Positions 14,984 to 34,223 of a DNA stretch of 57,763 nucleotides are shown here, in pieces. Position 1 is the first letter of the stretch, and each line of letters opens with the position of its first letter. The position numbers were made by a program, and so were the translations under genes. This stretch comes from an uncultured Lachnospiraceae bacterium. Lineage in GTDB: Bacteria > Bacillota > Clostridia > Lachnospirales > Lachnospiraceae. Below the pieces are notes generated by a model, which was not told the origin of the DNA, did no database searches, and saw only the letters and a list, made by a program, of their open reading frames with translations. The DNA is taken from positions 1-57,763 of the forward strand of contig CAMVCQ010000004.1 in the NCBI GenBank assembly GCA_947166015.1. Reading direction: 5' to 3'.

Positions 14984-15628
14984 ATGCCCCAAAAGACAAA
15001 AGACTACAACTCCCTTTCCGACGAAGAGCTGATCGATCTTTTCAGAGATGGACAGGAGCCCGCTGTAGATATACTGATAGAGCGTTACAAAGGGATGGTT
15101 CGCAAATCAGCACGAGCACTCTATCTGATAGGCGGCGACAATGACGACCTGATCCAGGAAGGAATGATCGCACTCTACAAAGCCGTCCGTTCCTATGACG
15201 CAAAAATAGCCGCTTCCGGCGGCTTTGCTCCCTATGCTTCTACCTGTATATCAAATCACCTGTACAATGTGATCAAGTCAGCCAACAGGCTCAAAAATTC
15301 TCCGTTAAACACTTCTATTTCCCTCGATGCTCCCGCTTCGGTATCGGGTAATGAAAACGATCTGCGAACCGTGGCTGACACCCTTCCTCCGGATATGAAT
15401 ACAAACCCGGAGCAGATCCTGATAGACCGCGAGAGCGTCACAGACATCAAAGAATCCATCATGTCGTCCTTGAGTAGCTTTGAAAGGGATGTGGTGCTTC
15501 TCTACATAGAAGGACAGAGTATATCCGCTATCGGCGAAAAGCTCGGCAAATCCGCCAAGTCAATCGATAACGCCCTTCAGCGTGTCAAAAAAAAGCTCTC
15601 CGCTCACGACAAAAGAACAACCGCATAG
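14984..15628 (+). CDS. sigH: RNA polymerase sigma factor, SigH-like
   Basis: The protein has 214 residues from ATG 14984 (GGAG 5-6 bases upstream); the ORF is also open from an ATG at 14972 without a site. Region 2 is seen at about 15-90 ([64 protein letters not shown]) and region 4 at about 155-205 ([42 protein letters not shown]). In Bacillus and Clostridia SigH directs early sporulation or transition-state genes. The position after mrnC and rlmB is the conserved location of sigH. Its end overlaps the end of ispF on the other strand by 25 bases. Confidence 0.9.
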
Positions 15629-16071
15629 GAGGCCATACCTTCCTCTCTTCCGGTAAATCCAAGTCCCTCCTCTGTTGTCGCTTTGACACTCACTTTATCT
15701 ATATCAACACTTAATGCTGTCGCGATATTTTTTCTCATCTCATCAATATAAGGTCTTAGCTTAGGCTTTTGAGCAAGGATCACCGAATCTATATTTTCTA
15801 TTTCATATCCTTTTTCTCTGATCAATTTTCCCACCGCAGACAAAAGCTTCAAGCTGTCCGCTCCTTTGTACTTAGGATCAGTATCGGGGAAATGAAGGCC
15901 TATATCTCCAAGCGCCGCTGCCCCGAGAAGCGCATCCGATATAGCGTGAAGCAACACATCTGCATCCGAGTGTCCGTCAAGTCCGAGTGTGTGCTCTATC
16001 TCCACGCCACCGAGGATAAGCTTCCTTCCCTCAACAAGTTTGTGAACATCATATCCGTTTCCGATTCTCAT
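15604..16071 (-). CDS. ispF: 2-C-methyl-D-erythritol 2,4-cyclodiphosphate synthase
   Basis: The protein has 155 residues, the normal length. Metal ligands are in the motifs GNGYDVHKL (Asp8, His10) and [25 protein letters not shown]; the P-loop-like [11 protein letters not shown], the substrate segment [19 protein letters not shown] and the closing SYAVVLL are all present. IspF is the fifth enzyme of the MEP isoprenoid pathway and converts CDP-methylerythritol 2-phosphate to the cyclic diphosphate with loss of CMP. It is the last gene of the leftward molybdenum/formate cluster, 25 bases after the phosphatase gene, and is convergent with sigH. Confidence 0.97.
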
Positions 16072-17233: not shown

Positions 17234-17258
17234 TTTTGTAATTCCACACTTTCAATGC

Positions 17259-18158
17259 TTATTCGATAGTCGCTATATTTGCAAACCCTGCAAGTTCAAA
17301 TATATCCTGTATCTCAGAGTTCGCATTTTTAATGATTATTCTGTCTTTATCATTGATTATCTTTGCAGCTTTCAAAAACACACGCAACCCGGCCGAGGAC
17401 AGATACTCAAGCTTTTCAAGCTCAAAAATGACCTTATCGGCATCAGTTAGTTTTTCTTCCGTGATCTTTTCCGCCAGCGTCGGCGAGGTAGTCAGATTCA
17501 ATTCTCCTTCCGGATAAAAAATAATAGTTGCCCCTTGTTTTTCTTCTCTGATCTCAAACATTTTTCCACACTTTCCTTTCCTTACAACGGAACAATACTC
17601 CTGATATGTGTTTAGGTTTTTAACCGCATCTTCAGAAAACCCACCATCTGAGAGCCTGATTGTTTGATGATCTATCCTGCTTATCAGATCAGACACCCTA
17701 TGCTCTCCATTATCTATCATTTTTTCAATTATTGCAACAACTGATTTATGATATATTGCACACAACGGCTCAGGACCTTTTTCACTATTCACCACCAAAC
17801 ACTGCGATCCGGGGTCTTTGTTCTCCCACATATATTTCACTATCTCTTTTTTTATCAGTGGCATATCAACCGCGCATATAAAAATGTTTTCATTTTTGCA
17901 CTGATCAAGCAGGCAGTATATCCCTTCCAAAGGTCCGAAACCTTTGATCCTGTCCCGGACAATCGTCACTCCGATCTCGGCAAACTTTTCAGGCTCGCGA
18001 CACGATATCAAAACCTCTGAAAATTCATGAAGTTCTTCGCATATATGCATTATAAAGCTTTTGTTTTTGTATTGCAAAAAAGCTTTATCACTGCCCATTC
18101 GGGTGCTTAACCCTCCTGCCAGAATCCCTATCGAAAGAGCTTTCGGATCATTTTTCAA
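17259..18158 (-). CDS. MobA-like guanylyltransferase fused in frame to a STAS domain
   Basis: The ORF has 299 residues. Residues 1 to about 190 are MobA-like: GILAGGLSTRMGSDKAFL is the nucleotide-binding signature, and FICAVDMPLI holds the metal-binding Asp. MobA joins GMP to molybdopterin to make MGD. Residues 200-299 are a complete STAS domain (MFEIREEKQG start; LEYLSSAGLRVFL carries the likely phosphorylated Ser254/Ser255). There is no stop between the parts, but ATG 17561 has a GGAAAG-rich site, so the STAS part may also be made alone (100 residues). The start overlaps the end of fdhA by 4 bases. The pairing of cofactor enzyme and regulator is unusual. Confidence 0.85.
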   Translation of the reverse strand: MKNDPKALSIGILAGGLSTRMGSDKAFLQYKNKSFIMHICEELHEFSEVLISCREPEKFAEIGVTIVRDRIKGFGPLEGIYCLLDQCKNENIFICAVDMPLIKKEIVKYMWENKDPGSQCLVVNSEKGPEPLCAIYHKSVVAIIEKMIDNGEHRVSDLISRIDHQTIRLSDGGFSEDAVKNLNTYQEYCSVVRKGKCGKMFEIREEKQGATIIFYPEGELNLTTSPTLAEKITEEKLTDADKVIFELEKLEYLSSAGLRVFLKAAKIINDKDRIIIKNANSEIQDIFELAGFANIATIE

Positions 18159-20893: not shown

Positions 20894-22721
20894 CGCCTCT
20901 GCCCCCTTCCATAACACCGCAGCCATAGTAATCACATCTTAAGCATCGTCCGGCTTCTCGCATTGCTTCTTCCTTTGTCATCTCAACTTCAACAAAAGAA
21001 AAATCTTTTCTTCGTTCAAACGGATCCCTTTCCTCTATCTCAAGTCTTCCGGTCGGCACGCAGGGATTAGGCGTGGCCTGAGGTATTTCGACTCTTTTAG
21101 CCGGCTTATGATGATATCCCAAATACTCATCGATATTTACGGCAGCTACCTGGCCTGCCGCTATAGCCCTGATCGCCGTGGATGGGCCGCTCACACAGTC
21201 TCCCCCTGCAAACACACCGTCCATACCTTTTACACGGCACATCTCATCGGCTATGATCCTGCCTCTGTCAACGGGAACCGATGATTTTTCAAATTCCGCC
21301 ACATCAGCACGCTGACCTACACCGAGTATCAGCAGATCGCAGGTAAATCGATATGGGTATTTTTCTGAATGTTCGGTAGTCATCATACCGTTTTTGTCAT
21401 ACTCGGCGATGATCTCCGGTTGAAGCCAGACAGCAGAAACCTCCCCTGTTTCACTATCAGTTTCTATGTTCAAAAATGAAAGCAGCGTCCTGAATCGTAC
21501 ACCTTCCTGCATAGCTGCGGTCACTTCTGTTTCAAGAGCAGTTATATCATCTCGTTTTCTTGTAAATACATGTATCGTTTCAGCCTGAAGTCTTGCAATT
21601 GTACGGGCTGCGTCCATAGCGACATTTCCGCCGCCTATCAAAACCACATGCTTGCCTTTTACATCCGGTGCCTCACCACGGGCGACCATCTGAAGAAAGT
21701 CGGCAGCCGGTATGACATTTTTCGCATCAGCTCCGTCCACCGGCATGCGGTTACCTATCTGTGCACCAAGTCCTATATAGACTGCATCGAATTTTTCTTT
21801 TATTTCTTCGAAACTGATATCGCGTCCGACACGAGTTGAAGTATGGACCGTGATGTCGCCCGAATTCAAAATAAAATCTATATCCCTGTTGAGGTCCTCC
21901 TTGGGGAGACGGTACTCAGGGATCCCATAACGAAGCATACCGCCGAGTTTTTCGTGCTCATCAAAAACTGTTACTGCATGTCCCATAAGCGCACAAAAAT
22001 AAGCCGCTGTCATTCCTGAGGGTCCGCCGCCGATAACAGCTATTTGTTTACCTGTAGATATGACATCAGCCTTTTCCGATATTGCTTCATCTCTTGCTGA
22101 TTCTACTGCAAATTTTTTTAATGCCCTGATATTGATAGCATCATCTATCAGAAGTCTTCTGCATTTTTTCTCACAGGGATGCTCACATATCATAGAGCAG
22201 GATGTGGGAAATGGGTTTTTTTCACGAATAACACTTACAGCGTCAGTATATCTCTCATTTTTGATACAAGCTATATAGCCCGGAACATCCACATGCGCCG
22301 GACACAGGGTTACACAGGGTATGGTCTGTGATGCGTCACCGACACATTTTTTATCTTTTATATGGCTCTCATACTCATCTGCAAATTCCACAAGTGAGTC
22401 CAAAACCAGATTTGCACTTACTACTCCAACCGCACAGTCAGCAGTAGCAGCGATGCGGCGGCATTTTTTCTCCATCTCGCTCAAGGTTTCCACGGTCCCT
22501 CTTCCTGCAAGGATATCCTCAAGCAATCTCTCCACCTGAACCAATCCATCACGGCAGGGTACACATTTTCCGCAGCTTTGGTTCATGGATATCTGAAACA
22601 ACGACTTAACCAAAGCAAGAGGACACATGCCCGGCGGATATGACATCATTCGAGAACGAAAACGATACAATAGGTTGTCTATTCTTTCGTTTACATCGTT
22701 AGTTTTGTAGAGTTTTTTCAT
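20886..22721 (-). CDS. NuoF-type Fe-S segment fused to GltD-like FAD/NAD(P) oxidoreductase
   Basis: The protein has 611 residues. Residues about 1-120 match only the C-terminal, 4Fe-4S-bearing part of NuoF (SCGKCVPCRDGLVQVERLL, later CRRIAATADCAVG), without its FMN/NADH domain. Residues about 130-600 are GltD-like: an N-terminal double Fe-S segment (CVTLCPAHVDVPGYI, CSMICEHPCEKKCRR), an FAD motif IAVIGGGPSGMTAAYFC, a second dinucleotide motif HVVLIGGGNVAMDAARTIA, and ending GVFAGGDCVSGPSTAIRAIAAGQ. A terminal CLRCDYYGC adds more Cys. It is the probable electron partner of FdhA, linking formate to NAD(P)H or ferredoxin. No NuoE-like gene is seen here. Confidence 0.88.
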   Translation of the reverse strand: MKKLYKTNDVNERIDNLLYRFRSRMMSYPPGMCPLALVKSLFQISMNQSCGKCVPCRDGLVQVERLLEDILAGRGTVETLSEMEKKCRRIAATADCAVGVVSANLVLDSLVEFADEYESHIKDKKCVGDASQTIPCVTLCPAHVDVPGYIACIKNERYTDAVSVIREKNPFPTSCSMICEHPCEKKCRRLLIDDAINIRALKKFAVESARDEAISEKADVISTGKQIAVIGGGPSGMTAAYFCALMGHAVTVFDEHEKLGGMLRYGIPEYRLPKEDLNRDIDFILNSGDITVHTSTRVGRDISFEEIKEKFDAVYIGLGAQIGNRMPVDGADAKNVIPAADFLQMVARGEAPDVKGKHVVLIGGGNVAMDAARTIARLQAETIHVFTRKRDDITALETEVTAAMQEGVRFRTLLSFLNIETDSETGEVSAVWLQPEIIAEYDKNGMMTTEHSEKYPYRFTCDLLILGVGQRADVAEFEKSSVPVDRGRIIADEMCRVKGMDGVFAGGDCVSGPSTAIRAIAAGQVAAVNIDEYLGYHHKPAKRVEIPQATPNPCVPTGRLEIEERDPFERRKDFSFVEVEMTKEEAMREAGRCLRCDYYGCGVMEGGRGDE

Positions 22722-22743
22722 TCTTACCCCCTGTTATCACATA

Positions 22744-23805
22744 TCATTTTTCACTTTTGTTTTTGTCTATGGCTACATAGTCTCCATGTATCCCACCTGT
22801 TTTTGACAAAAGCCTGATATCAGTCAGGACTATATCCCTTTGAACTGCTTTACACATATCATATACTGTCATAGCAGCTACAGATACCGCTGTTATCGCT
22901 TCCATCTCAACACCGGTTCTTCCCGTACAGGTCACTTTTGCCTCAATCTCGACTGCCAGTTCCTCTTCATTTAGCTTGAGATTCAGATCTGCACCGTCGA
23001 TAATGATAGGATGGCACATAGGGATCAGATCGGGCGTTCTTTTTGACCCCATGATTCCGGCGATCTGTGCAACCGTAAGTACATCACCTTTTTTTATTCT
23101 TCCGTTTTTGATCAACGAAAACGTGTCTTTGTTTACCAATACTTTCGCACCTGCAGTAGCCGTTCGACGCGTTATATCCTTATCTGCTACAGTGACCATT
23201 CGGGCATTACCCTCCGGATCAAAATGAGTCAATTCACCTGGTATTTTTTCATTGTTTATATCACTATTTTTATCATTATTATCCTTATTTTTTATGTTGA
23301 AATGATCGCATATCCAGGAGGCTATTTTTTCTGAATTATTTCTGTCAAATAGTATGGTTTCTGCCCTCTCTGATATGCCTTTTGCAAACTCCGAATCGAG
23401 ATCATCCGTAATTATTGCCTCGTACACACTTGCTTCTTCCGGCAGTTCGTATTTTGTGTCTGCGCTCGCTACACCGATCCTTGGGATCGCAGCATACTTG
23501 TATCCCTCTACAAAAATAATGTCAGCGTTATCACAATCACTTATCATTTCCTCAAGTGAATACGAACACCTGCTGAATTTAGCGCTTTTTTTCGGAGAAG
23601 ATATATATACCCGGTCAGCGCCCGCTTCCTTGTAACGCCAGGTATCCTTTCCCTCTCTGTCTATCTCAAAATCATGTGCATCATGCTTTATGACAGCAAT
23701 GTTTAATTTCTGTTTTTTAAACTCAGGTATCAGCCTCTCGATCAGTGTTGTTTTTCCACTGCCTGAAAACCCGGAAAACCCAAGTATCATCCTGTTGTTA
23801 TTCAT
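22744..23805 (-). CDS. MobB-MoaC fusion, molybdenum cofactor biosynthesis
   Basis: The protein has 353 residues from ATG 23805, which has GGAGG 5 bases upstream; an earlier ATG at 23817 overlaps that site. Residues about 1-165 are MobB: the P-loop GFSGFSGSGKTTLIERL, then IAVIKHDAHDFEID and ADIIFVEGYK. MobB is a GTPase that assists MGD formation. After an Asn/Asp/Lys-rich linker (about 168-185), residues about 190-350 are MoaC: LTHFDPEGNARMVTV, AGAKVLVNKDTF, KRTPDLIPMCHPI, CTGRTGVEMEA and DIRLLSKTGG. MoaC completes cyclic pyranopterin monophosphate synthesis after MoaA. An early-step and a late-step enzyme are thus joined. It lies 22 bases before the flavoprotein gene. Confidence 0.93.
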   Translation of the reverse strand: MNNNRMILGFSGFSGSGKTTLIERLIPEFKKQKLNIAVIKHDAHDFEIDREGKDTWRYKEAGADRVYISSPKKSAKFSRCSYSLEEMISDCDNADIIFVEGYKYAAIPRIGVASADTKYELPEEASVYEAIITDDLDSEFAKGISERAETILFDRNNSEKIASWICDHFNIKNKDNNDKNSDINNEKIPGELTHFDPEGNARMVTVADKDITRRTATAGAKVLVNKDTFSLIKNGRIKKGDVLTVAQIAGIMGSKRTPDLIPMCHPIIIDGADLNLKLNEEELAVEIEAKVTCTGRTGVEMEAITAVSVAAMTVYDMCKAVQRDIVLTDIRLLSKTGGIHGDYVAIDKNKSEK

Positions 23806-23910
23806 AGTTGCCTCCATCCCGGAGCGTAGAACGCGAATTTCTGATTTGTGTCTGCCATAATTGCACTGTTTGTAACGCTCCTACACAAACATGCAGAGTG
23901 AAAAATCAAA

Positions 23911-24927
23911 CTAATACCTGCCAAACGTACAATTCGGATAGTGACAAGCCTCGCATAACTGACACAATCCTCCGTAGGCCAATCGCAGAAGGTCTTCTTT
24001 TGTAAGCTTCAGCCCTGTATATATCTGCGGGAGCAAAACATCAAAAACAGTGGTAGGAAGGTGTATCGCCGCCCCCGGAACACCAAGTATCGCGACATCT
24101 CCCAGATAGGCAACCAGCGTCATGTTGCCGGGTTGCGAAGGGAGTCCGTAGCTTATGATATCGGCGCCGAGCTCTCGTATGGCACCGGGCGTCAGGTCAT
24201 CAGGATCAACCGACATACCTCCGGTAAATATCAGAAAATCAGCTCCCTTATCCATAAGCTCTTTTGTCGTACTGAGTATCATCCCTTTGTCATCATCACA
24301 AAGCCTGACACCCACTATCTCTCCCGGAAAGTACGATAGCTTTTTTCTGACTACAGGCTCAAATCTGTCCTTGGTCCGTCCACTGTAGATTTCCGATCCT
24401 GTTATGATCACACCGACTTTTTTCTCCGTATACGGGAGCAGATCGATCAGTTTTTTTTCTTTGCAGAGCTGTTCAGCCTGTACTATCTGTTCCTCCTCGG
24501 TAAAAAGCGGTACAATCCTCATTGAAGCGAGTCGGGCATTTTTCTCAACCCTGTAGTGGTCCGGCAGCGTAGTGATCGTGATATCACCAATAGAATTCAC
24601 CCTCTGCAAAAGCTCGGTATTCACGCGAAGCATCCCCTGTCTGTCGCTGATGAGCAAAACCTTTCCCTCTGACGGGCCTTCGTAATGCGCGCCTTCAACC
24701 TCTGCCATCGCTGCGAGCCTGTTCGCACAATCCTCTTCATGCAGCATCCCGGGTTCAATCTCTCCGACAAAAATGTTTTTCTTGCCGATGTTTAACAATG
24801 TCTCGATATCATCCTCGGTTATCACGTGCCCTCGCTTAAACATGGCTCCTTTGAATCCCGGCACCATCGCAGTTATATCGTGGCACAGAGGCAGTCCTAC
24901 AGCCTCCTCAACTTTTACTTTTTTCAC
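23911..24927 (-). CDS. MoeA/MogA-type molybdopterin-binding protein
   Basis: The protein has 338 residues from GTG 24927, which has GGAGG 5 bases upstream; the ORF is open from an ATG at 24957. Seen: an N-terminal part with GLPLCHDITAMVPG and FKRGHVI as in MoeA-like proteins, then a MoCF-binding (Mog) domain at about 165-305 with KKVGVIITGSEIYSGRTKDRF, LIFTGGMSVDPDDLTPGAIR and GVPGAAIHLPTTVFDVLLP. The C-terminus ends in a Cys-rich tail, LCQLCEACHYPNCTFGRY, perhaps a metal site. This short form is often near molybdenum hydroxylases and formate dehydrogenases in Clostridia. Its exact step is not established. It precedes the MobB-MoaC gene by 105 bases. Confidence 0.85.
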   Translation of the reverse strand: MKKVKVEEAVGLPLCHDITAMVPGFKGAMFKRGHVITEDDIETLLNIGKKNIFVGEIEPGMLHEEDCANRLAAMAEVEGAHYEGPSEGKVLLISDRQGMLRVNTELLQRVNSIGDITITTLPDHYRVEKNARLASMRIVPLFTEEEQIVQAEQLCKEKKLIDLLPYTEKKVGVIITGSEIYSGRTKDRFEPVVRKKLSYFPGEIVGVRLCDDDKGMILSTTKELMDKGADFLIFTGGMSVDPDDLTPGAIRELGADIISYGLPSQPGNMTLVAYLGDVAILGVPGAAIHLPTTVFDVLLPQIYTGLKLTKEDLLRLAYGGLCQLCEACHYPNCTFGRY

Positions 24928-24981
24928 ATTATCCTCCATTCCGGAGAGTATCGGCACGACTATCCGTCATACCTACTCTGT

Positions 24982-26208
24982 TTATACTGAAAATACATTT
25001 ATCTTAGTTCCTGTTTTTATTGGAGCTTTTAATCCCGAAACAACACCGTAGGCATCACATCTTGCTGCGCTGCTTATCACAACATTTCCCTGAGACGAAG
25101 GTGCATCGAAAAAAATGTCCCCATCGCGAAATGCTATCCTTCCCCTTACAAAACGCGTTCCTTTTCCTGCTCCTTTTTTGATTTCATCTCCGACTTTTAT
25201 TTGTACTACCTGATGCTCGTACTGATCAAGCCCCATCATTTTTTTGATCGCCGGATAGCATACACATTGAAGATTTGTAAGTGATGACGCGGGATTTCCT
25301 GAGAGCCCGAGCATAAGCCTTGTATTTGAATCCTCTTTTTTGATACCATACGCACAAGCCATCCCCGGCTTCATTGCTACTCCCCTTACGGGTATTTCGT
25401 ATCCGCACTCCTTCATCGCATCGGGAACAAGATCATAGTCCCCCACGGAAACTCCTCCCGTAGATATAATCATATCACATTTGTCTTCTCCTTCACGGAT
25501 AAGCCTGCATATGTCTTCTACAGTATCCGCTGCCTGACCCAGATATACAGTTTGCACACCTATACTCTCAAGTGCGGCTGCTATAGTGTATCTGTTGGAA
25601 TTTCTGATCTTCCCCGGCGGAAGAAAACCACCTGCTTCTACAACTTCATCTCCGGTTGAGAGTATCCCCGCAACAGGCATCCTGTACACAGAAACGGACA
25701 TGATTCCAAGAGAGGCAAGCGTTCCCATCATACCGGCATCGATCCGATATCCTTTGTTCAAAACAACTGTCCCGAAACGGATATCCTCTCCGGCAGTCAC
25801 AACATTGTCACCCGGTTTATACTCATTTTTGATGGTTACGGATTCATCGGTAAACTCAGTGTCCTCGTATTTACAAACAGCATTTGCTCCCTCAGGGATC
25901 GGTGCTCCCGTCATAAGCCTTGTTGCCATACCTGACTCTATTTTTTGAGCAGGCATCTGACCTGCGCGTATGTTTTCTACGACTCGGAGTGTGACCGGTT
26001 TTGCTTCAGATGCATCAGTTGTATCCTCTGCCCTAAACGCATATCCATCATAGGGTGAGCGATCAAATGAAGGGACATTTTCAGCTGCCGTGATATCAGA
26101 TCCAAGTACTCGTCCCAGGCATTTTTCAATCGGAATATCTTCTGTTTCAACAGGATTTATCGTTTTTTCAAGAAGCAGGGCGGCTTCTTTGTAATCCATT
26201 TTTTTCAT
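24982..26208 (-). CDS. moeA: molybdopterin molybdotransferase MoeA
   Basis: The protein has 408 residues from ATG 26208, overlapping the modB stop (ATGA), with AAGGAG upstream. Family motifs in order: VPSFDRSPYDGYAFRAED, RLMTGAPIPEGANAV, a MoCF domain with AGILSTGDEVVEAG, IISTGGVSVGDYDLV, VAMKPGMACAYG, GLSGNPASSLTNLQ, and a C-terminal barrel with KGTRFVRGRI and SSQGNVVISSAARCDAYGVV. MoeA inserts molybdate into adenylated molybdopterin. It sits directly behind the molybdate transporter genes. Confidence 0.95.
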   Translation of the reverse strand: MKKMDYKEAALLLEKTINPVETEDIPIEKCLGRVLGSDITAAENVPSFDRSPYDGYAFRAEDTTDASEAKPVTLRVVENIRAGQMPAQKIESGMATRLMTGAPIPEGANAVCKYEDTEFTDESVTIKNEYKPGDNVVTAGEDIRFGTVVLNKGYRIDAGMMGTLASLGIMSVSVYRMPVAGILSTGDEVVEAGGFLPPGKIRNSNRYTIAAALESIGVQTVYLGQAADTVEDICRLIREGEDKCDMIISTGGVSVGDYDLVPDAMKECGYEIPVRGVAMKPGMACAYGIKKEDSNTRLMLGLSGNPASSLTNLQCVCYPAIKKMMGLDQYEHQVVQIKVGDEIKKGAGKGTRFVRGRIAFRDGDIFFDAPSSQGNVVISSAARCDAYGVVSGLKAPIKTGTKINVFSV

Positions 26209-26885
26209 CTGTTCTCCTTTTTCACTGCACTGCGCTGTTTGCCCTCTATGATATTTATCGCGAGCAGAACAGTTGCAGATATCGCTATATTTATCAGCAC
26301 CCATTTGATAGCAAGACCGGAGTTATCAGTCCGCCACAGCTGATATACCGTAGTCGATATGGTAGCCGTCCTTCCGGGTGTATATCCGGCGATCATCGTT
26401 GTCGCTCCGTACTCTCCGAGAGCTCTGGCAAAGGCCAGAACAGTTCCCGCTATGACTCCCGTTTTGCAGGTCGGAAGTACTATACGGAAAAATATATAGC
26501 TGTTACTTAACCCCAGCGTCTGCCCGGCCTGAGCATAGGTCATATCAAACGCTTCAAAAGCACCTCTGGCCGTCCTATACAAAAGTGGAAAAATGATGAC
26601 AGTCGTGGCAAATACAGCCGACCACCAATTCATGGTAAGCCTCAGTCCAAATACATTTAAAAACCATTCTCCGATCGGTCTTTTGGGTCCAAATAATAAC
26701 AACAACAGGTATCCTACAACTGTCGGCGGCAAAACCAAAGGAAGTGTAAAAATGCAGTCAAGGATTCCTTTTATTATTCTCGGCAAACGCACAACGAACC
26801 ACGCTGCCGCTATCCCGACAATCAATACTATAATTGTACTTATCCCAGCTATTCTAAGCGAATTGTATAGCGGATATAAATCCAT
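26205..26885 (-). CDS. modB: molybdate ABC transporter permease
   Basis: The protein has 226 residues with five to six membrane helices. The family features LPLVLPPTVVGYLLLLLFG, FPLLYRTARGAFEAFD and the EAA-type loop AFARALGEYGATTMIAGYTPGRT are clear. ModB forms the membrane channel and takes energy from ModC. It lies 47 bases after modA and overlaps moeA by 4 bases. The order modC, exporter, modA, modB is unusual because an unrelated ABC exporter separates modC from modA. Confidence 0.95.
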   Translation of the reverse strand: MDLYPLYNSLRIAGISTIIVLIVGIAAAWFVVRLPRIIKGILDCIFTLPLVLPPTVVGYLLLLLFGPKRPIGEWFLNVFGLRLTMNWWSAVFATTVIIFPLLYRTARGAFEAFDMTYAQAGQTLGLSNSYIFFRIVLPTCKTGVIAGTVLAFARALGEYGATTMIAGYTPGRTATISTTVYQLWRTDNSGLAIKWVLINIAISATVLLAINIIEGKQRSAVKKENR

Positions 26886-26932
26886 TTTATCACCGTTTCT
26901 TTTTGCTTATTTTTAATTAAATATAATAATTA

Positions 26933-27730
26933 TTATTTGATAACAGTAAATCCTACTTTTTCAAAAATCTTACTGCTCGCATCATTTTTTATAAAATCCA
27001 AAAACGCTTTTGCATGTTCCTGGTTTGAAGCACCCTTAAGTACAGAAGCCGGATATACAGCTTTTCCGCACATTTCCTCCGTTGCCGTGTCAACCACCGT
27101 TACCCCTGCGGAAAAAGCATCTGTAGAGTAGATAACTCCGCAGTCCACTGCACCCTCACTAACCTGTGTGGTAACTTCTTTTACATTGCTTCCATAAGTG
27201 ATGAGTCCGTCATCTGCAAGAGCTTTTTCATCAAGCCCATAGTAGTTGAGGATTTTTTGAGTATACTGACCTACAGGTACGTCTTCATTTCCCATAGCCA
27301 TCAGGATATCTTTGCTTTTCAGATGCCTGACCATATCGTCATATGAATTTATATTTTTTTTGTTATTATCAGGCACGACCAATGTGACTTTGTTTTCCAA
27401 AATATCACATCTGGTGTCCTTTTCGATCTTGTCGGAAGCATCGAGTTCATCCATCTGCTTTTGCGCTGCCGAGATAAACAGATCACACTCAGCGCCTTCT
27501 TCGATCTGAGTTTTTAGTGTTCCCGATGAATCAAAATTAAAGGTTATATCTACGTTTGAGTTTTCTTTGATATATAACTGCTTTATCTCCTCGAGCGTCT
27601 CCGTCATAGACGCTGCGGCAAATACCGTAAGGCTTGTTTTTTCATTTTTTGTTTCACCGCTTCCACAACCGGCAAGGAAAAATATCATTATAACCGATGC
27701 CAACATGATTTGAGTAATTCTTTTTTTCAT
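26933..27730 (-). CDS. modA: molybdate-binding lipoprotein
   Basis: The protein has 265 residues from ATG 27730, which has AAAGGA 9 bases upstream. ATG 27748, overlapping the exporter stop as ATGA, is an alternative. The signal peptide ends in a good lipobox, FFLAGCGSGE. The binding-protein core has LTVFAAASMTETLEEI, FDSSGTLKTQIEEGAECDLFISA, MAMGNEDVPVGQYTQKIL, and a C-terminal Tyr/Val segment AVYPASVLKGASNQEHAKAF. These are the ligand-binding features of ModA/WtpA-type proteins, which bind molybdate or tungstate outside the membrane. Tungstate cannot be excluded from sequence alone. Confidence 0.93.
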   Translation of the reverse strand: MKKRITQIMLASVIMIFFLAGCGSGETKNEKTSLTVFAAASMTETLEEIKQLYIKENSNVDITFNFDSSGTLKTQIEEGAECDLFISAAQKQMDELDASDKIEKDTRCDILENKVTLVVPDNNKKNINSYDDMVRHLKSKDILMAMGNEDVPVGQYTQKILNYYGLDEKALADDGLITYGSNVKEVTTQVSEGAVDCGVIYSTDAFSAGVTVVDTATEEMCGKAVYPASVLKGASNQEHAKAFLDFIKNDASSKIFEKVGFTVIK

Positions 27731-27744
27731 GATATGTTTTCCTT

Positions 27745-29847
27745 TCATGCAGAGCCTGACTCCTCCTGATACAGAAGCCTGTATGGCTCACATTTTTTCA
27801 ACAGCTCCTCATGACTTCCCTCAGCCAAAATGCTGCCGTCCTGCATATACAAAATCCTATCCGCACCAATGACCGTCGACAGTCTGTGTGCAATAAGGAT
27901 AATTGTTCTGTTTTTGCTGATTCCGTCAATTGCTTTTTGGATCTTGGCTTGCGTAACATTGTCAAGTGCGGATGTAGCCTCATCAAAAAGGATGATCCTG
28001 TAGTTTTTCAAAAGACTCCTTGCGATGGCAAGTCTCTGCCTTTGTCCTCCGGAGAGATTTACACCGCCCTCGCCTATCACCGTGTCGTACCCCTCAGGCA
28101 TCTCCATGATATCGTCATCTATGCAGGCGAGTTCACAAACCTGTTTCATCTCCTCGTCCGTCATATCTATTTTTGCCAGACGGAGGTTTTCTTTGACAGA
28201 CATATTAAAAATGTACGGCGACTGATTTACAACCGTCATTGTATTTCTGATAGAGTCTTTTGTAAGCTCATTTATATCCACCCCGTCAAGCAGTATCCTG
28301 CCATCCTGCGGATCATACAAACGACTTAGAAGGTTAAGGACCGTAGTTTTGCCGCATCCGCTTTTTCCGACAATAGCTACCATCTCTCCCTCTTTTATTT
28401 TGAAGCTCATTTTTTTGAGTACTTTTTTGTTTTTGTGAAGAGGATCGCCGGCACCGTAACCAAATGTCACATTGTCAAAGCATATCTCTCCTCTTGGATT
28501 TTCAAGCTCGGTATCTCCAAATTTTTCTTTTGGAAACTCAGGACTGTTCATAAGTGCGCACACTCGCTCGATAGAAAGATTGAAATCTTTGACATATTCC
28601 ATAAATTCACCGGCAAGCGTGATAGCGCGGACATCGAGACTTGAATAATAATTATACAAAACAACGATCGTTGAAGCGGCAAGCCAGCCCCAGCCCAAAA
28701 ACAATGCCAAAAGAACGATGAACAAAAATGTTCCGAGCTCGCTTACTTCCCACCTGACAAGTTTTAGATTCCAGGAATTCCCCTGCATAGTCAGTCGCTT
28801 GTCATTTGCATTTATCACACGATCTTTTGCTTCTTTGCAAAATGAATCTTCGCTGTTTAGCTGCTTTACATCTCTTGCGCCTCTGACCATCTCACTGATA
28901 AATCCGGAAAACCTCTCGTTTGCATTCCTGTATATCCTATCATCCGCACACAGGCGTTTGGTCCTGTATATCTCCATAAATGATTCTATCACGAGCAGAA
29001 CAAGTGTCAAAAGAAAAATAAACGGATTGATAACGAGCATAGCCAGGAGAATCCCGATATAGTTTATCGCCTGTGCGATCATATCCGCGATCCTTCCGAA
29101 TCCTGTAGCCATTCGAGCAGTATCGTTCGTGAGACGCTGTATAAAAACTCCGCTGCCTTTTTCTTCCATACAATGGTTTCTGATCTGCAAAGCTCCCCTC
29201 ACCAGGTCACCCTCGAGAGTAGATAGCGTGCGTGAGTATACCTTGTTATATCCTTTGTTACTTCCGACCAACAACAGGTTTTTCAGAAGCTGTACCACCA
29301 GCAATATAACCGCCACAACTATAACCTGAGCAACCTGGTTTTCCATATATTTAACAACCACTTTTGCACTCAGCACCGGTGCCACCACTCCGAGGATAAC
29401 ACTTACAAACTGTATAGCTATAGAGAAAAACAAAAGCTTTTTGTGCTCTTTCACATAACTCCACGCAAACGAATAATTCCTTCCCGTAGAATTGTATAAT
29501 ACAAGTCTGAAAACAATTTGATTTGTATGTTTTTTGTAATTCCAGACAGGCTTATGATCAAGCTCTTCTATAAACCTTTCAAGCAGCGGACTGTCCATCT
29601 GAAACGGGTTCATTTCTTCTCCGTCAACAGATAATACTACTATGTAATCCCCACCTTTTTTTTTGCTCTTTACGGAAAATCTTTTTTGCTCTCCTGCCAG
29701 CTCCTGAAAAATGATCAATATTTCTTCAAAAGAAAGTCTGAAACGAACTCTCATCTCAGGTGTGATGCCGACTCTTTCAAGCTCTTTTTCCATGCTCTCA
29801 ACAGCCATCTGCATCTCATCAGCTTTCATCGATTTTTCAAGTTTCAT
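27745..29847 (-). CDS. ABC exporter (TMD-NBD) with degenerate HATPase-like N-terminal domain
   Basis: The protein has 700 residues. Residues about 135-420 are a six-helix exporter domain and about 455-695 an ATPase with Walker A GKSGCGKTT, signature LSGGQRQRLAIARSLL, Walker B IILFDEATSALD and the switch His. The first 115 residues are extra: RLSFEEILIIFQELAGE, VVLSVDGEEMNPF and LLERFIEELDHKPVWNYKKHTNQIVF follow the order of an RsbW-type HATPase, but the Asn of the N-box is missing, so ATP binding is doubtful. Its cargo is unknown. It lies between modC and modA with no gap and a 4-base overlap, so it is made with the molybdate importer. Confidence 0.85.
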   Translation of the reverse strand: MKLEKSMKADEMQMAVESMEKELERVGITPEMRVRFRLSFEEILIIFQELAGEQKRFSVKSKKKGGDYIVVLSVDGEEMNPFQMDSPLLERFIEELDHKPVWNYKKHTNQIVFRLVLYNSTGRNYSFAWSYVKEHKKLLFFSIAIQFVSVILGVVAPVLSAKVVVKYMENQVAQVIVVAVILLVVQLLKNLLLVGSNKGYNKVYSRTLSTLEGDLVRGALQIRNHCMEEKGSGVFIQRLTNDTARMATGFGRIADMIAQAINYIGILLAMLVINPFIFLLTLVLLVIESFMEIYRTKRLCADDRIYRNANERFSGFISEMVRGARDVKQLNSEDSFCKEAKDRVINANDKRLTMQGNSWNLKLVRWEVSELGTFLFIVLLALFLGWGWLAASTIVVLYNYYSSLDVRAITLAGEFMEYVKDFNLSIERVCALMNSPEFPKEKFGDTELENPRGEICFDNVTFGYGAGDPLHKNKKVLKKMSFKIKEGEMVAIVGKSGCGKTTVLNLLSRLYDPQDGRILLDGVDINELTKDSIRNTMTVVNQSPYIFNMSVKENLRLAKIDMTDEEMKQVCELACIDDDIMEMPEGYDTVIGEGGVNLSGGQRQRLAIARSLLKNYRIILFDEATSALDNVTQAKIQKAIDGISKNRTIILIAHRLSTVIGADRILYMQDGSILAEGSHEELLKKCEPYRLLYQEESGSA

Positions 29848-30906
29848 TTAATCTTTTTCCTCCGATTTCATAAGCAGGATCTTTTCCGGTTTAACACTGA
29901 TGCACGCCGGTACATCAAACTGATCGGTGTCATCACTTAAGCTTTTGGGGATTTTCCACCACAATCCGTTTTCCAGAGTCACATACCACTCAAACGGCAG
30001 CCTGCTGATTTTTGAGTTTCCCGTAGGAATATCATTTTCTCCGCATCTTCCCGGAAGAAAATCATGTGCTCTGATACCTGCGTAGGTTATATCATCTCCG
30101 ATGATTTCGGATGTTGTCAGGATCAGATCACCCCAATCCCCGGCGCATAACCTGTGCTCATCGATTTTCTCTATCCGACTTATATTTTTGCATCCGGTAA
30201 GCTTTGCTATTTTTGGGGTTTGGGGATGGGCAAATATTTCATCGGATATGCCCTGTGTCAACACCTTTCCTTCGTCCACAAGGACAAGATAATCACACAT
30301 CTGATAAATCTCATCCCTGTCATGGCTTACCAGGATAACAGTCTTGTCGTATTTTTCCAAAAATCGTATCAGCTCCAGACGAAGCCCCTCGCGCATATAG
30401 GTATCCATCGCCGAAAAAGGCTCGTCCAAAAGAAGGATATCAGGATCACAGGCAAATACCCTGGCCAGCGCCGTCCTCTGTTGCTGGCCTCCGGATATTT
30501 CGCTTGGATAATGTGTACGAATATCTGCTATCTGAAATGTCTGAAGCATTTCATCAACATTTTTTTTCGGGGCATTTTTCCCATGAAGAGCTGCTTTGAT
30601 ATTTTGCTCAACAGTCATATGCGGGAAAAGCGCGTAGTTCTGAAACAGATAACCGACATTTCTGTTTTTTGCCTTGACATCTATCTTTTTTTCGGAATCA
30701 AACAGTACCTGCTCATCTACGATCACAATTCCGCTGTCGGGCTTTATCAGTCCCGCTATAGCTTTGAGCGTAAGTGTTTTTCCGCAGCCGGAAGCACCGA
30801 GGATCCCTATTCTTTTGCTGTCTGTTTTTATAGATATATCAAGCGAAAAATCTCTGTATTTTCTTTTAATCTCAAGTTCTATTCCCATATTTTTACTGTC
30901 TTGCAC
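29848..30906 (-). CDS. modC: molybdate ABC transporter ATP-binding protein
   Basis: The protein has 352 residues from GTG 30906, with GGAG 9 bases upstream and a 14-base overlap with the MOSC gene; ATG 30888 lacks a clear site. Seen: Walker A GASGCGKTLT, Q-loop NYALFPHMTVEQNI, signature SGGQQQRTALARVF, Walker B ILLLDEPFSAMD, switch VILVSHDRDE, and a C-terminal accessory domain (about 235-350) of the TOBE kind. Sequence layout matches ModC, which powers molybdate import with ModB. Confidence 0.92.
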   Translation of the reverse strand: MQDSKNMGIELEIKRKYRDFSLDISIKTDSKRIGILGASGCGKTLTLKAIAGLIKPDSGIVIVDEQVLFDSEKKIDVKAKNRNVGYLFQNYALFPHMTVEQNIKAALHGKNAPKKNVDEMLQTFQIADIRTHYPSEISGGQQQRTALARVFACDPDILLLDEPFSAMDTYMREGLRLELIRFLEKYDKTVILVSHDRDEIYQMCDYLVLVDEGKVLTQGISDEIFAHPQTPKIAKLTGCKNISRIEKIDEHRLCAGDWGDLILTTSEIIGDDITYAGIRAHDFLPGRCGENDIPTGNSKISRLPFEWYVTLENGLWWKIPKSLSDDTDQFDVPACISVKPEKILLMKSEEKD

Positions 30907-31852
30907 ACTCGGAAACTCCGCCCCTCAATACCTTTATTCCGTGGTCAAGTCCCGGAAGAATAAACCCAAGGCACTCTTCGACCGCCTTCGGACTGCCGGG
31001 AAGATTGACTATGAGAGAATTTCCTCTGATAACGGATGCCCCTCTGGTGAGCATTGCCCTGTCTGTGATCTCAAGCGATTTCATCCTGATATACTCAGCG
31101 ATCCCGGGTGCATTTCTGTCTGCTATATCCATAGTAACCTCGGGAGTTCCGTCTCTGAATGAAAAACCGGTTCCACCGCTTGTGATGATCAGATCTGCCT
31201 CACGTCCGTCACTCAAACGGATAAGCTCCATCTTTAATCGCTTTGTATCATCAGGGATCACTACTGTCTCTATTACCTCATAGCCATTTTTTTCAAGGAT
31301 TTCTTTTGCCTTCGGGCCGCTTAAATCCTCTCGTTGTCCAACTGATGCTTTGTCGCTGAGCACGATCACAGCCGCCTGGAACGGACGATTTATATCCGGG
31401 TATTCAACTGAGAATTTATCACCTTTTTTTATCGTTCCTCCGGTCAACACCTCAGTAAATGTTCCCTGGTGCGGCATTATGCACTCACCCATTCTTTTGT
31501 ATATATTGCAGTGAGTATGACACTCCTTGCCTTTCTGTGTCACACGGATACGAACCGGGTTATCTCCCTCTCCTATGCTCAAAACACTTCCAACAGGGAG
31601 TTTGACACAATCAACACCGTCGATTATCAGGTTCTCTCCGAAGTCGCCGTTTTTCACATCTGCACCTCTTCGATTGAACTCATCCACACGATACCCTGAA
31701 AGCATACTGACCTGTCTATGCCATTTTCCTGCGTGGGCATCACCCTGAATTCCTTCTCCTTCGATAAATGTTGCCTGTTCAACCTCTGTTTTTTCCACCC
31801 CTCGTTTTTCACTCACGCATATTGCACGAATCTCACCTGTTAATTGTTTCAC
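30893..31852 (-). CDS. MOSC domain fused to MogA/MoaB-type molybdopterin-binding domain
   Basis: The protein has 319 residues. Residues about 1-150 are a MOSC domain: GIQGDAHAGKWHRQVSML, the GDFGENLIIDG motif, and the conserved Cys in GKECHTHCNIY. MOSC proteins carry sulfur or molybdenum cofactor. Residues about 155-315 are MogA/MoaB-like: AAVIVLSDKASVGQREDLSG, LIITSGGTGFSFRDGTPEV, MLTRGASVIRGNSLIVNLPGSP. MogA adenylates molybdopterin before metal insertion. The joined form is known from Clostridia and couples carrier and activation functions. It lies 43 bases after moaA and overlaps modC. Confidence 0.93.
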   Translation of the reverse strand: MKQLTGEIRAICVSEKRGVEKTEVEQATFIEGEGIQGDAHAGKWHRQVSMLSGYRVDEFNRRGADVKNGDFGENLIIDGVDCVKLPVGSVLSIGEGDNPVRIRVTQKGKECHTHCNIYKRMGECIMPHQGTFTEVLTGGTIKKGDKFSVEYPDINRPFQAAVIVLSDKASVGQREDLSGPKAKEILEKNGYEVIETVVIPDDTKRLKMELIRLSDGREADLIITSGGTGFSFRDGTPEVTMDIADRNAPGIAEYIRMKSLEITDRAMLTRGASVIRGNSLIVNLPGSPKAVEECLGFILPGLDHGIKVLRGGVSECARQ

Positions 31853-31895
31853 TTTGAATTACCTCCTTCTTTGGATTATTTTTTATAATAAGGCG

Positions 31896-32867
31896 TTATC
31901 CGCCTATAGAGGACATAGCATGCTTTTCGGATATTTTTTCTCCTTGTAAAAATGAGTGTGAATCCGGTTTTAAAAAAATGCACTGCTCGATATCAGAACC
32001 TAATCTGCTGAAAATCTCCTGCTCCGGCTTCCCGCTTCTCAAGGTTTCTTTCACATCGACTCCCGTATCATAGCAAAGACAGCTTTTCAGAAATCCCTGC
32101 GATGTCAATCGAATGCGGTTACAGGAATCGCAAAACTTTTTATGGATCGCGCTGATAAATCCTATGCAACCCCTAAATCCCGATATGCGGTAGTATTCCG
32201 CAGGACCATTGCCGTGTCTGGCGCTGTCCGGCTGCAATTGTCCGTATCTGTCACTGATCATTGGTATCAATTCATCATGGGGGATGCCCGGAAATCCTTT
32301 TCCCATACCTATAGGCATCATTTCTATGAATCGAACATCAATATCACGATCTTTTGTCAACCCGATCAGATCATCCACATCATCTGACTTGAGGGATACG
32401 GCATTGATCTTTATGGGAATATCGTATTTTAACGCAGCCTCTATGCCCGATCTTACATCCTCCAGCTTATCGAATCCTGTAATCTGTCTGTATCTGTCCG
32501 GGTCAAGTGTATCAAGGCTTATGTTTATCCCGTCTATCCCCGATCTCACAAGATCATCCAGTTGATCGTATAGCAGCACACCGTTTGTAGTGATCGTTAC
32601 CTCTTCGATTCCCGGTATACATTTGAGCATATTGACAAGGGTATCTATACCCCGTCGCACCAACGGCTCACCGCCTGTGATCTTGATTCGCGATATGCCA
32701 AGTTTTTGCGCGGCACGAACGACATTTGTTATCTCCTCGTATGTGAGGAGCTCTTTCATTTCCACTGATTCTATACGCTCCGGCATACAGTACCTGCACC
32801 GCAGATTACAGCGGTCTGTAACCGATACTCTCATATAGTCAATTTTTCTTTTGTATCTGTCCTGCAT
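31896..32867 (-). CDS. moaA: GTP 3',8-cyclase MoaA (radical SAM)
   Basis: The protein has 323 residues from ATG 32867, which has GGAG 7 bases upstream; the ORF is open 25 codons further but without a site. The radical-SAM cluster is Cys20, Cys24, Cys27 in DRCNLRCRYC. The C-terminal second cluster is Cys246, Cys249, Cys263 (FCDSCNRIRLTSQGFLKSC). TGGEPLVRRGID is present, and the protein ends in Gly-Gly, needed for activity in known MoaA proteins. MoaA turns GTP into the cyclic precursor that MoaC completes. It is the first gene of the leftward cluster, behind a promoter at 32914-32942. Confidence 0.96.
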   Translation of the reverse strand: MQDRYKRKIDYMRVSVTDRCNLRCRYCMPERIESVEMKELLTYEEITNVVRAAQKLGISRIKITGGEPLVRRGIDTLVNMLKCIPGIEEVTITTNGVLLYDQLDDLVRSGIDGINISLDTLDPDRYRQITGFDKLEDVRSGIEAALKYDIPIKINAVSLKSDDVDDLIGLTKDRDIDVRFIEMMPIGMGKGFPGIPHDELIPMISDRYGQLQPDSARHGNGPAEYYRISGFRGCIGFISAIHKKFCDSCNRIRLTSQGFLKSCLCYDTGVDVKETLRSGKPEQEIFSRLGSDIEQCIFLKPDSHSFLQGEKISEKHAMSSIGG

Positions 32868-32913
32868 TTTTCTACTCCATACAACTTGTTTACACGAAAG
32901 CAAACGCATTTTC

Positions 32914-32942
32914 ATTTTATCATATTTTAGCTTATTTTTCAA
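32914..32942 (-). promoter_or_regulatory. promoter of the molybdenum cofactor/formate dehydrogenase cluster
   Basis: On the minus strand: TTGAAA (32942-32937), a 17-base spacer, TAAAAT (32919-32914), with an extended TG one base before the -10. It starts about 45 bases before moaA. The leader is too short for a molybdenum-cofactor riboswitch. A terminator hairpin (32948-32987) directly upstream isolates it from the tRNA locus. Confidence 0.6.
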
Positions 32943-32947
32943 ACAAA

Positions 32948-32987
32948 AAAACCTAAAAGCATGTACTATGTACAGCTTTTAGGTTTT
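32948..32987 (-). terminator. intrinsic terminator behind the tRNA fragment
   Basis: A long hairpin: AAAACCTAAAAGC (32948-32960) pairs with GCTTTTAGGTTTT (32975-32987), and the inner bases TGTAC/GTACA also pair. On the minus strand it ends in TTTTTTGTTT. It was probably the terminator of the original tRNA-Val/tRNA-Met operon before the element inserted. Confidence 0.85.
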
Positions 32988-32997
32988 CACGGGTAAG

Positions 32998-33044
32998 TAG
33001 CGGGAACTGGAGTCGAACCAGCGACACCACGGGTATGAACCGTG
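32998..33044 (-). repeat. 47-bp att-like copy of the tRNA-Met 3' part
   Basis: This stretch is identical, base for base, to 34147-34193, the part of the intact tRNA-Met from the first base of the anticodon stem to the discriminator base. The 5' half of the tRNA is absent. A 3' tRNA fragment facing an intact copy of the same tRNA is the classic footprint of integrase-mediated insertion. It is not a working tRNA. Confidence 0.9.
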
Positions 33045-33151
33045 GTACTGCTTGTTCAAAAGCGCTGTGTTTTCGCCATTTTCACACCCTCGCACGAAAT
33101 AGTTATCTCATTTTTATAGCCTTTTGGGCCGGTTCATATCAAACCCTATTA

Positions 33152-33337
33152 TCAAACACGAGCGGTCTGCTGCTGCTCACGCTGTTTAATCTGTGCCATC
33201 AATATAGGACGGTACTTATCATTCATTTGCCTGGTAAGTTCATCACTCTTTTTGCGGAGTTCTGCCTGTTTAAGCCCCCATTCTACCGCGGCCTGATTAT
33301 CTTCCGGCTTTTCACTTAGTATCGGATGATCTAACAT
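33152..33337 (-). CDS. small hypothetical protein in the integrated remnant
   Basis: The protein has 61 residues from ATG 33337, with TAGGAGG 6 bases upstream. It is highly charged and predicted helical (KQAELRKKSDELTRQMNDKY), with a Gln-rich end. There is no signal peptide. It follows the JAMM-like gene by 10 bases and is probably co-transcribed. Similar short coiled-coil proteins are frequent in integrated elements, but I recognise no family. Confidence 0.5.
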   Translation of the reverse strand: MLDHPILSEKPEDNQAAVEWGLKQAELRKKSDELTRQMNDKYRPILMAQIKQREQQQTARV

Positions 33338-33347
33338 ATGGCACCTC

Positions 33348-33980
33348 CTACTTGTATTCATAGATTATATTAGCATTGAAACAATTCTTCAAAAACAACT
33401 CTGCCGCATCCTGATAGTCATCCAGGTTTTCACCCTGATTATGGAGCGAAACAGCATCATTGTAAAGATCAATCGCACGAGGATAGTCATAACTCGGCTT
33501 TTTTACCAAATATGAAACACCCCCAAGATTTGTAATCACTACCATCATCTTAACGGATGGATTTCTCAAGAAAAACTGAATATCCTCCAATGAAAACTTC
33601 GACAGTGACGGATGATTATGCAGTACAATCACCACACAATCCGCAGTCGTTTTAATCAAGTGGTAGGATATGGGATTCGACAACGGATCAACGGAATGCT
33701 CGTCGCCAAGCGCAATTCCCATATAATCCTCGCCTCTGCTGATCAATTCCCTATAGTTTAAGGTATATGTCAGTGCGACCTCATTGGAATCATTTGAATC
33801 CATTGCAAGCCTGAGAACATCCCTAGCATAGTCCCGAAGATTGTCATACTCCTCCTCAGGAATCTCCTTGTAACTTATCCTTGGTACCTTGTTTACCGCT
33901 TCCTCCGTGATCATGACTTTATGGTCACGTTTTTTTGCCATCTCAAGGTCGTTCAGGTTATCCGTATGCTTTTCAGACAT
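33348..33980 (-). CDS. JAB/JAMM (RadC-like) domain protein
   Basis: The protein has 210 residues from ATG 33980 (in-frame ATG 33992 is possible; ribosome sites are weak for both). The centre has VVIVLHNHPSLSKFSLEDI, matching the metal-binding HxHP...S..D motif of JAB/MPN proteases and of RadC, with one residue fewer than RadC between His and Asp. The flanks resemble JAB-domain proteins carried by conjugative and integrative elements. The N-terminal 60 residues are acidic. The substrate is unknown. It lies between the tRNA-Met gene and its 3' fragment, so it belongs to the inserted element. Confidence 0.7.
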   Translation of the reverse strand: MSEKHTDNLNDLEMAKKRDHKVMITEEAVNKVPRISYKEIPEEEYDNLRDYARDVLRLAMDSNDSNEVALTYTLNYRELISRGEDYMGIALGDEHSVDPLSNPISYHLIKTTADCVVIVLHNHPSLSKFSLEDIQFFLRNPSVKMMVVITNLGGVSYLVKKPSYDYPRAIDLYNDAVSLHNQGENLDDYQDAAELFLKNCFNANIIYEYK

Positions 33981-34090
33981 TGCCTTCACCATCCTTAATT
34001 ATAAAATAACACAATTCTGCAAAAATATCAATACCAAAACGGTAAAATAAGGCAGTCTCTGTCAGCAATTGATTACCGGCGTCAAAAAGA

Positions 34091-34134
34091 TAAAAAAACA
34101 CCCGAAAATCCGTATATCTAACGAACTTTCGGGC
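34091..34134 (-). terminator. intrinsic terminator after tRNA-Met
   Basis: On the minus strand GCCCGAAAGTTCG pairs with CGGATTTTCGGGT (arms 34134-34122 and 34112-34100, with G:T pairs), loop of 9, followed by GTTTTTTTA. It lies 13 bases after the tRNA-Met discriminator base and would end the tRNA transcript before the remnant genes. Confidence 0.8.
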
Positions 34135-34146
34135 TTTCATTTTGAA

Positions 34147-34220
34147 TAGCGGGAACTGGAGTCGAACCAGCGACACCACGGGTATGAACCGTGTGCTCTT
34201 ACCAACTGAGCTACCCCGCC
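34147..34220 (-). tRNA. tRNA-Met (anticodon CAT)
   Basis: The gene is 74 bases without encoded CCA. Acceptor GGCGGGG pairs with TCCCGCT (G1:U72 and G7:U66 wobble); D-arm GCTC/GAGC, anticodon stem CACGG/CCGTG with loop TTCATAC, T-arm GCTGG/CCAGT with TTCGACT, discriminator A73. Position 1:72 is paired, so it is an elongator Met tRNA or possibly a CAT-read Ile tRNA rather than the initiator. Its 3' 47 bases recur at 32998-33044. Confidence 0.95.
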
Positions 34221-34223
34221 ATA

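Follow-up and report, generated by a model that had tools for sequence, protein, structure and literature searches.

The tRNA-Met gene in the window (the whole 57,763-nucleotide stretch analysed here) appears to have received a foreign, tRNA-targeting insertion, probably a worn one, with a gene pair as payload that is dispersed independently, and we consider this reading moderately probable. An exact copy of tRNA positions 27–73 stands 1,149 bp from its counterpart in the intact gene (bases 32998–33044 and 34147–34193, with 47 of 47 identical), and the identity of the two copies breaks off abruptly on each side. ARAGORN recognized a single complete tRNA-Met at the locus (34146–34221, minus strand), while the displaced fragment scored 19.1 bits against the Rfam tRNA model, under the 29-bit gathering score, and is therefore no complete tRNA. 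A pattern search of the 2.1-Mb genome located this att core in these two places only, and the number of chance matches expected to either repeat half, allowing up to three mismatches, was 0 or 0.01. The label Met was taken from the CAT anticodon, and the gene may instead encode a lysidine-type isoleucine tRNA. Base composition of the 1.1-kb unit is unremarkable (41.2% G+C, against 43.2%).

The features of the locus are collected in Table 1. The sequence-only reading of this DNA had described the partial tRNA copy, a terminator at each end, and a JAMM-like gene with a 61-residue ORF lying between the copies without an integrase, and each of these descriptions held. The repeat is exact, both terminators fold far better than shuffled sequences, and neither an integrase nor another recombinase was found in the 1.1 kb between the repeat copies. 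The start of the small ORF was placed at 33337 by alignment with relatives, which gives the 61 residues.

Table 1. Features at and around the tRNA-Met locus, in window positions.
Feature	Position	Strand	Basis
Intact tRNA-Met(CAT), target gene	34147..34220	-	ARAGORN; Rfam 62 bits; sole complete copy of the core in the genome
Direct repeat copy 1, tRNA positions 27–73; putative inner insertion edge	34147..34193	-	47/47 against 32998–33044
Terminator A, probably travelling with the insertion	34091..34134	-	Fold -21 kcal/mol, z -4.8
Predicted module promoter/leader block, TTGATA-17-TATTTT (by inspection)	33986..34042	-	100% over 57 bp in G009; 96% over 50 bp in G006
JAMM/MPN-type protein, 214 aa	33348..33992	-	Family alignment, constraint, model, fold match
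Small partner ORF, 61 aa	33152..33337	-	Directly downstream of JAMM in most copies
Non-coding outer end	33045..33151	-	In G006 the same promoter is followed by a different gene's leader that matches 33107–33136
Direct repeat copy 2, displaced tRNA-Met 3' half	32998..33044	-	47/47 identity with copy 1
Terminator B, after the displaced fragment	32948..32987	-	Fold -22.6 kcal/mol, z -6.6
ispF, context	15604..16071	-	Directly after tRNA-Met in relatives without the insert

Comparison with relatives was made on draft genomes, and the wider set holds many that are metagenome-assembled. tRNA-Val and tRNA-Met are neighbours in most of the 39 genomes of the genus. The ispF gene directly follows tRNA-Met in G017, G008, G018, G012 and G038, and follows partial copies of the tRNA 3' half in G025, G019 and G001. 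G017 is the closest relative at the locus, with ispF DNA 81% identical to that of the window; here (L054) tRNA-Met is followed by a terminator and then by ispF, providing the empty site with which the sequence-only reading had proposed to compare the unit. In the window genome, ispF lies 17 kb past the fragment, behind a molybdenum-cofactor/formate-dehydrogenase cluster. Thus, of the earlier proposal of a bounded 1.1-kb unit, the bounding repeats stood, but the fragment as the outer edge of the acquired DNA did not. Because ispF is so far away here and adjacent in relatives, DNA has evidently been inserted repeatedly between tRNA-Met and ispF, which makes the interval a hotspot; in this genome it holds at least two acquired segments, the JAMM unit among them.

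Evidence for acquisition comes from the block at 33986–34146, which matches G009 (87.5% over 96 bp, and 100% over 57 bp) and G006 (96% over 50 bp, and 77% over 56 bp), two genomes in which ispF is 70.8% and 68.4% identical to the window gene, respectively. Terminator A alone is 87.5% identical in G009 and 76.8% identical in G006, and is missing in the sister G017. In G006 the leading block of about 160 bp (terminator, spacer and promoter) follows the same tRNA, and in G009, where the contig starts just past tRNA-Met, the block is found at the contig start. It was not found in G017 or in the six further relatives tested, and other genera yielded short promoter-like matches at most. G007 retains a JAMM remnant of 28 amino acids, 93% identical, between tRNA-Met and ispF and just before the latter, and in G006 the same promoter abuts a leader that matches window positions 33107–33136, with JAMM and its partner missing. 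The shared block, the remnant and the leader together show that the same piece of DNA has been shared horizontally, has been in the tRNA-Met site of several species, and has decayed differently among them. With the empty site in the sister and a block common to two distant members of the genus, the earlier claim that DNA had integrated in the 3' half of tRNA-Met was borne out.

The sequence after the fragment, CTTACCCGT, resembles by eye that after the G017 tRNA-Met, CTTATCCCGT. This similarity scored 14 against a shuffled mean of 13.9, which is no excess, and the idea that the fragment side is visibly resident DNA by its likeness to G017 (CTTA-CCCGT) failed against the shuffles; that the fragment side is the resident copy is thus not proven. 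We take the intact tRNA to carry the incoming 3' half because of the block common to G009 and G006, and not because of the resemblance to G017.

The interval between tRNA-Met and ispF contains other sequences. In genus relatives (L052, 2620–2859; L049, 453–618; L051, 5991–6141) tRNA-Met is directly followed by one or two additional copies of its 3' half, which have a variable-region hairpin, and in L052 the repeated unit measures 83 bp. In G009 the insert between tRNA-Met and ispF (L042, 97–400) begins like the 3' end of a group II intron, beyond which a membrane-protein gene lies on the opposite strand. The 17 kb between the fragment and ispF in the window (16097–32942) hold molybdenum-cofactor, molybdate-transport and formate-dehydrogenase-like genes, plus a gene for a PP2C-type phosphatase. 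Close matches to moaA were found in two other genomes of the genus only, and in G007 moaA lies beside STAS-like and phosphatase-like genes (L065/L138). A single ORF at 17259–18158 appears to fuse a MobA-like nucleotidyltransferase to a STAS-like (anti-sigma-antagonist) domain, and the molybdate-transport operon includes an odd neighbour, an ABC exporter-like protein (27745–29847) that has an additional domain at its N terminus.

Under the reading that we favour, foreign DNA would have inserted itself into the only tRNA-Met gene, within its 3' half, bringing along tRNA positions 27–73, a terminator, a promoter and the two-gene module. The tRNA would have been kept whole, with the resident 3' half displaced by 1,149 bp. 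The resulting order of host 5' part, repeat, insert and repeat has the topology expected if a circle, whose existence we infer, had integrated through one crossover in the anticodon stem. The present 1.1-kb unit would probably be the leftover of a larger tRNA-integrating element that has lost its interior and any recombinase, and a larger ancestor is proposed because the outer end keeps part of another gene's leader. The payload pair has a history of its own, being scattered over the Lachnospiraceae with many copies decaying, and it may be a selfish or conflict module. Several points speak against this explanation: no integrase with the att core was found in this genome or among the matches listed for the genus, 17 of the 21 testable copies of the module have no close repeat, a circle of 1.1 kb would be very small, and the larger ancestor rests on one shared leader.

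The distribution of the payload shows that JAMM and its small partner form a conserved two-gene module, scattered in 2–4% of the sampled Lachnospiraceae genomes. JAMM was found in 14 of 397 genomes of the family, in 7 of 392 genomes of the order, and in 7 of the 39 genomes of the genus when weak relatives and remnants were counted; a separate collection of species genomes contributed 13 further JAMM loci. The two genes occur together in most of the full copies found, and differences by codon position indicate protein-level constraint on both. Flanking genes vary from locus to locus, and elsewhere a tRNA was found close to one copy only, in L127, where a tRNA-Arg comes immediately after the small ORF. 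Copies that are 82–96% identical at the DNA level occupy unrelated loci, although the records concerned carry the names of different genera, and the blocks common to close copies end at different points. In several copies JAMM is truncated or frameshifted while the small ORF is intact, the truncated ones being L117, L118, L121 and L133; for a possible toxin-antitoxin pair this is circumstantial evidence at most. The window genome has a second copy, 43% identical, on contig 42, and G017 is without the 2-kb segment that contains this copy. A 74-bp sequence (85%) is located upstream of the pair in L112 (5486–5559) and at the downstream edge in L121 (6737–6810). Carriage as plasmid or phage cargo was considered and rejected, with one weak match each (24–27% identity), the plasmid match being annotated as a phage minor head protein; among viral contigs, the relatives found were distant capsid-domain ones only.

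Neither protein of the pair has a significant match in Pfam, NCBIfam, PADLOC or PHROGs. Residues E71, H125, H127, S134 and D137 are invariant in 14 sequences, which fits the site requirement of a JAMM metalloprotease. The RadC profile scored 13.2 bits against a cut-off of 22.1, and the NCBIfam profile 13.8 against 180. The P-to-S loop is one residue shorter in this family than in RadC or AMSH. An AF2 model of the JAMM protein reached a pLDDT of 85, and its best Foldseek matches were to the JAMM domain of phage minor capsid proteins (E 2.4e-13, TM 0.71 by query length). Distant sequence matches also fell within phage minor capsid proteins, a search of solved structures by sequence returned nothing, and solved MPN structures gave weak fold matches. 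These model-based comparisons suggest that the domain is akin to that of the phage minor capsid proteins. The 61-residue partner was modelled as a single long helix (residues 11–60). A description of the pair was not found in the open literature. Our working guess is that the pair comprises a metalloprotease and a small controlling partner, acting selfishly or in conflict with phages.

We searched for direct repeats of at least 40 bp and at least 90% identity, close on both sides of each module copy that had enough flank; this test was devised after two loci with a partial copy of a neighbour gene on both sides had been noticed by eye. Such repeats (47–147 bp) were present at 4 of 21 testable copies, namely the window, L126, L044 and L131, compared with 0 of 463 control positions chosen at random within these loci (p = 2.7e-6). 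Leaving out the window, which had been chosen for its repeat, the count was 3 of 20 copies (p = 6e-5). In a larger control set, 12 of 1,859 positions had repeats, and the eight listed were all from a re-fetched module locus. A close direct repeat was missing at the other 17 copies. In L126 the repeat is 147 bp long (97% identity) and holds the ends of both convergent neighbour genes, both of which stay whole. The L131 repeat (142 bp) may represent a tandem pilin gene that was truncated. The 77-bp repeat of L044 (10047–10123 and 11352–11428), which surrounds the second JAMM copy and lies within a longer sequence that G025 (L169) also has, possibly belongs to a small dispersed repeat family. L131 and L044 weigh less because of these other possible sources. 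Duplication of the target with intact neighbours is accordingly clear in L126 and in the window tRNA and ambiguous in L131 and L044, so that L126 is the only clean case with both neighbours intact outside the window. No empty site is available for it, the genome being the single one in its genus. No common end motif, shared end k-mers or terminal inverted repeats beyond those in shuffled sequences were found, except for a palindrome inside the L131 repeat; transposon ends were ruled out by the lack of shared k-mers and terminal inverted repeats. L114 is a repeat-rich site, with about 1 kb repeated on either side of the pair (97%) and shorter repeats in addition. Overall, the pair seems to be mobile, in a way that leaves long repeats behind at part of its sites.

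These observations bear on an alternative in which the pair entered the locus without a recombinase, duplicating 50–150 bp of target DNA, with the tRNA repeat as one such duplication. The L126 repeat flanked by whole neighbours, the frequency of repeats above background, and the variable ends without terminal motif or inverted repeats would all be expected from such a route, which is also the pattern given for restriction-modification genes in PMC1643837 and PMC3031569. We nevertheless regard it as unlikely for the window, where the end of the repeat coincides exactly with the 3' end of the tRNA and so suits an imported tRNA half better than an interval duplicated at random, and where the adjoining terminator block is common to other species; moreover, L126 is its sole clean case elsewhere. 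It is conceivable, if similarly unlikely, that JAMM and its helical partner represent an undescribed selfish or toxin-antidote-like pair that spreads by host duplications of 50–150 bp without a recombinase of its own.

The sequence-only reading had taken the unit for a worn integrative element, or a satellite relying on another integrase. The searches that it had proposed, for larger elements in the same tRNA and for an integrase elsewhere with this att core, did not bear out either reading. The genome has two tyrosine recombinases (PF00589), on C9 and C48, neither of them near the att core or a tRNA, and the C9 enzyme is of a type of about 360 amino acids that is present in most members of the genus. 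Among the PF00589 matches listed for the 39 genus genomes, none is near tRNA-Met, and none of the viral contigs has the exact att core. The location of the two recombinases counts against a minimal satellite, in which the unit would be a complete 1.1-kb cassette with its own attP (tRNA 27–73), mobilized by a tyrosine recombinase in trans. An exact tRNA-end repeat that starts at the anticodon stem, one leading block recurring behind this tRNA in at least three members of the genus, and protein-level constraint on the module genes are what such a cassette would show, but the ends of the unit are not kept in G006 and G009, and most module copies elsewhere are away from tRNAs. We therefore judge it quite improbable.

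Homologous import is more doubtful still. A donor like G006 or G009 would have recombined through the conserved tRNA genes, with an illegitimate junction at the other side and no mobile element. The imported block does match those genomes at the same locus, and tRNA genes supply homology across species; yet the illegitimate outer junction would have to fall exactly at tRNA position 27, whereas copies of the 3' half starting one base away recur in other species (those in G025, G019 and G001 start one base inside the start of the window copy). An old tRNA duplication, to which the sequence-only reading thought that conservation of the fragment and both genes in order across distant genera would point, can be dismissed: although different genera share the pair, its copies occupy unrelated loci and are untied from the tRNA, the arrangement of fragment and pair was seen in the window genome alone, and the comparisons indicate that the window unit is an insertion.

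Among known systems, the insertion that we propose resembles the tRNA-targeting integrative elements (tyrosine-recombinase islands, ICEs/IMEs and prophages). As in these, the repeat consists of the 3' part of the tRNA, running from the anticodon stem through its final base, the insert has the intact tRNA on one side and the displaced fragment on the opposite side, and within the genus the site recurs as a hotspot. Unlike them, the window unit has no integrase, excisionase, replication, conjugation or phage genes within or beside it, measures just 1.1 kb, and carries a payload that elsewhere occurs without tRNAs. Because a recombinase was not found, we have not filed the unit in an integrase family.

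At the protein level, the window JAMM shares with the RadC-like and Prok-JAB families (PF04002, PF14464) the E, HxHP, S and D of the JAMM site, all invariant in the family alignment, but it falls below every curated cut-off and has a small partner gene of its own. The C-terminal JAMM domain of phage minor capsid proteins provides its best structural matches, whereas the window gene is free-standing and chromosomal, with head genes absent nearby and the 61-residue ORF as partner. This domain would tie chromosomal genes to one that is built into phage capsid proteins.

A looser parallel is offered by the AcrIIA22 islets of clostridia, where small genes occupy hypervariable places in the chromosome and no recombinase is consistently found close by (PMC8545432). 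Small genes, hypervariable sites and the lack of a recombinase are common to both, but AcrIIA22 is a single conserved gene at one locus rather than a two-gene unit; no relation to the small partner was detected, and we set the two apart by description.

The JAMM pair sits in abundant gut bacteria and is open to testing. Nobusato et al. 2000 are said, in PMC1643837 and PMC3031569, to have reported insertion with long target duplication for restriction-modification genes, and the dispersal of the JAMM pair appears, by analogy, closest to that pattern. Both involve a small, sporadic gene pair at unrelated loci, without a recombinase, and some copies of the JAMM pair are bounded by long, variable direct repeats of host DNA. 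If the likeness is true, this would be a second, unrelated pair with the target-duplication signature, which would mean either that genes move more generally in this way or that another selfish module exists. Such insertions have been linked to restriction-modification genes and read as a sign that these are selfishly mobile; the pair described here differs from them in combining a JAMM protein with a small helical protein, with neither nuclease nor methylase, and in having repeats at 4 of 21 copies.
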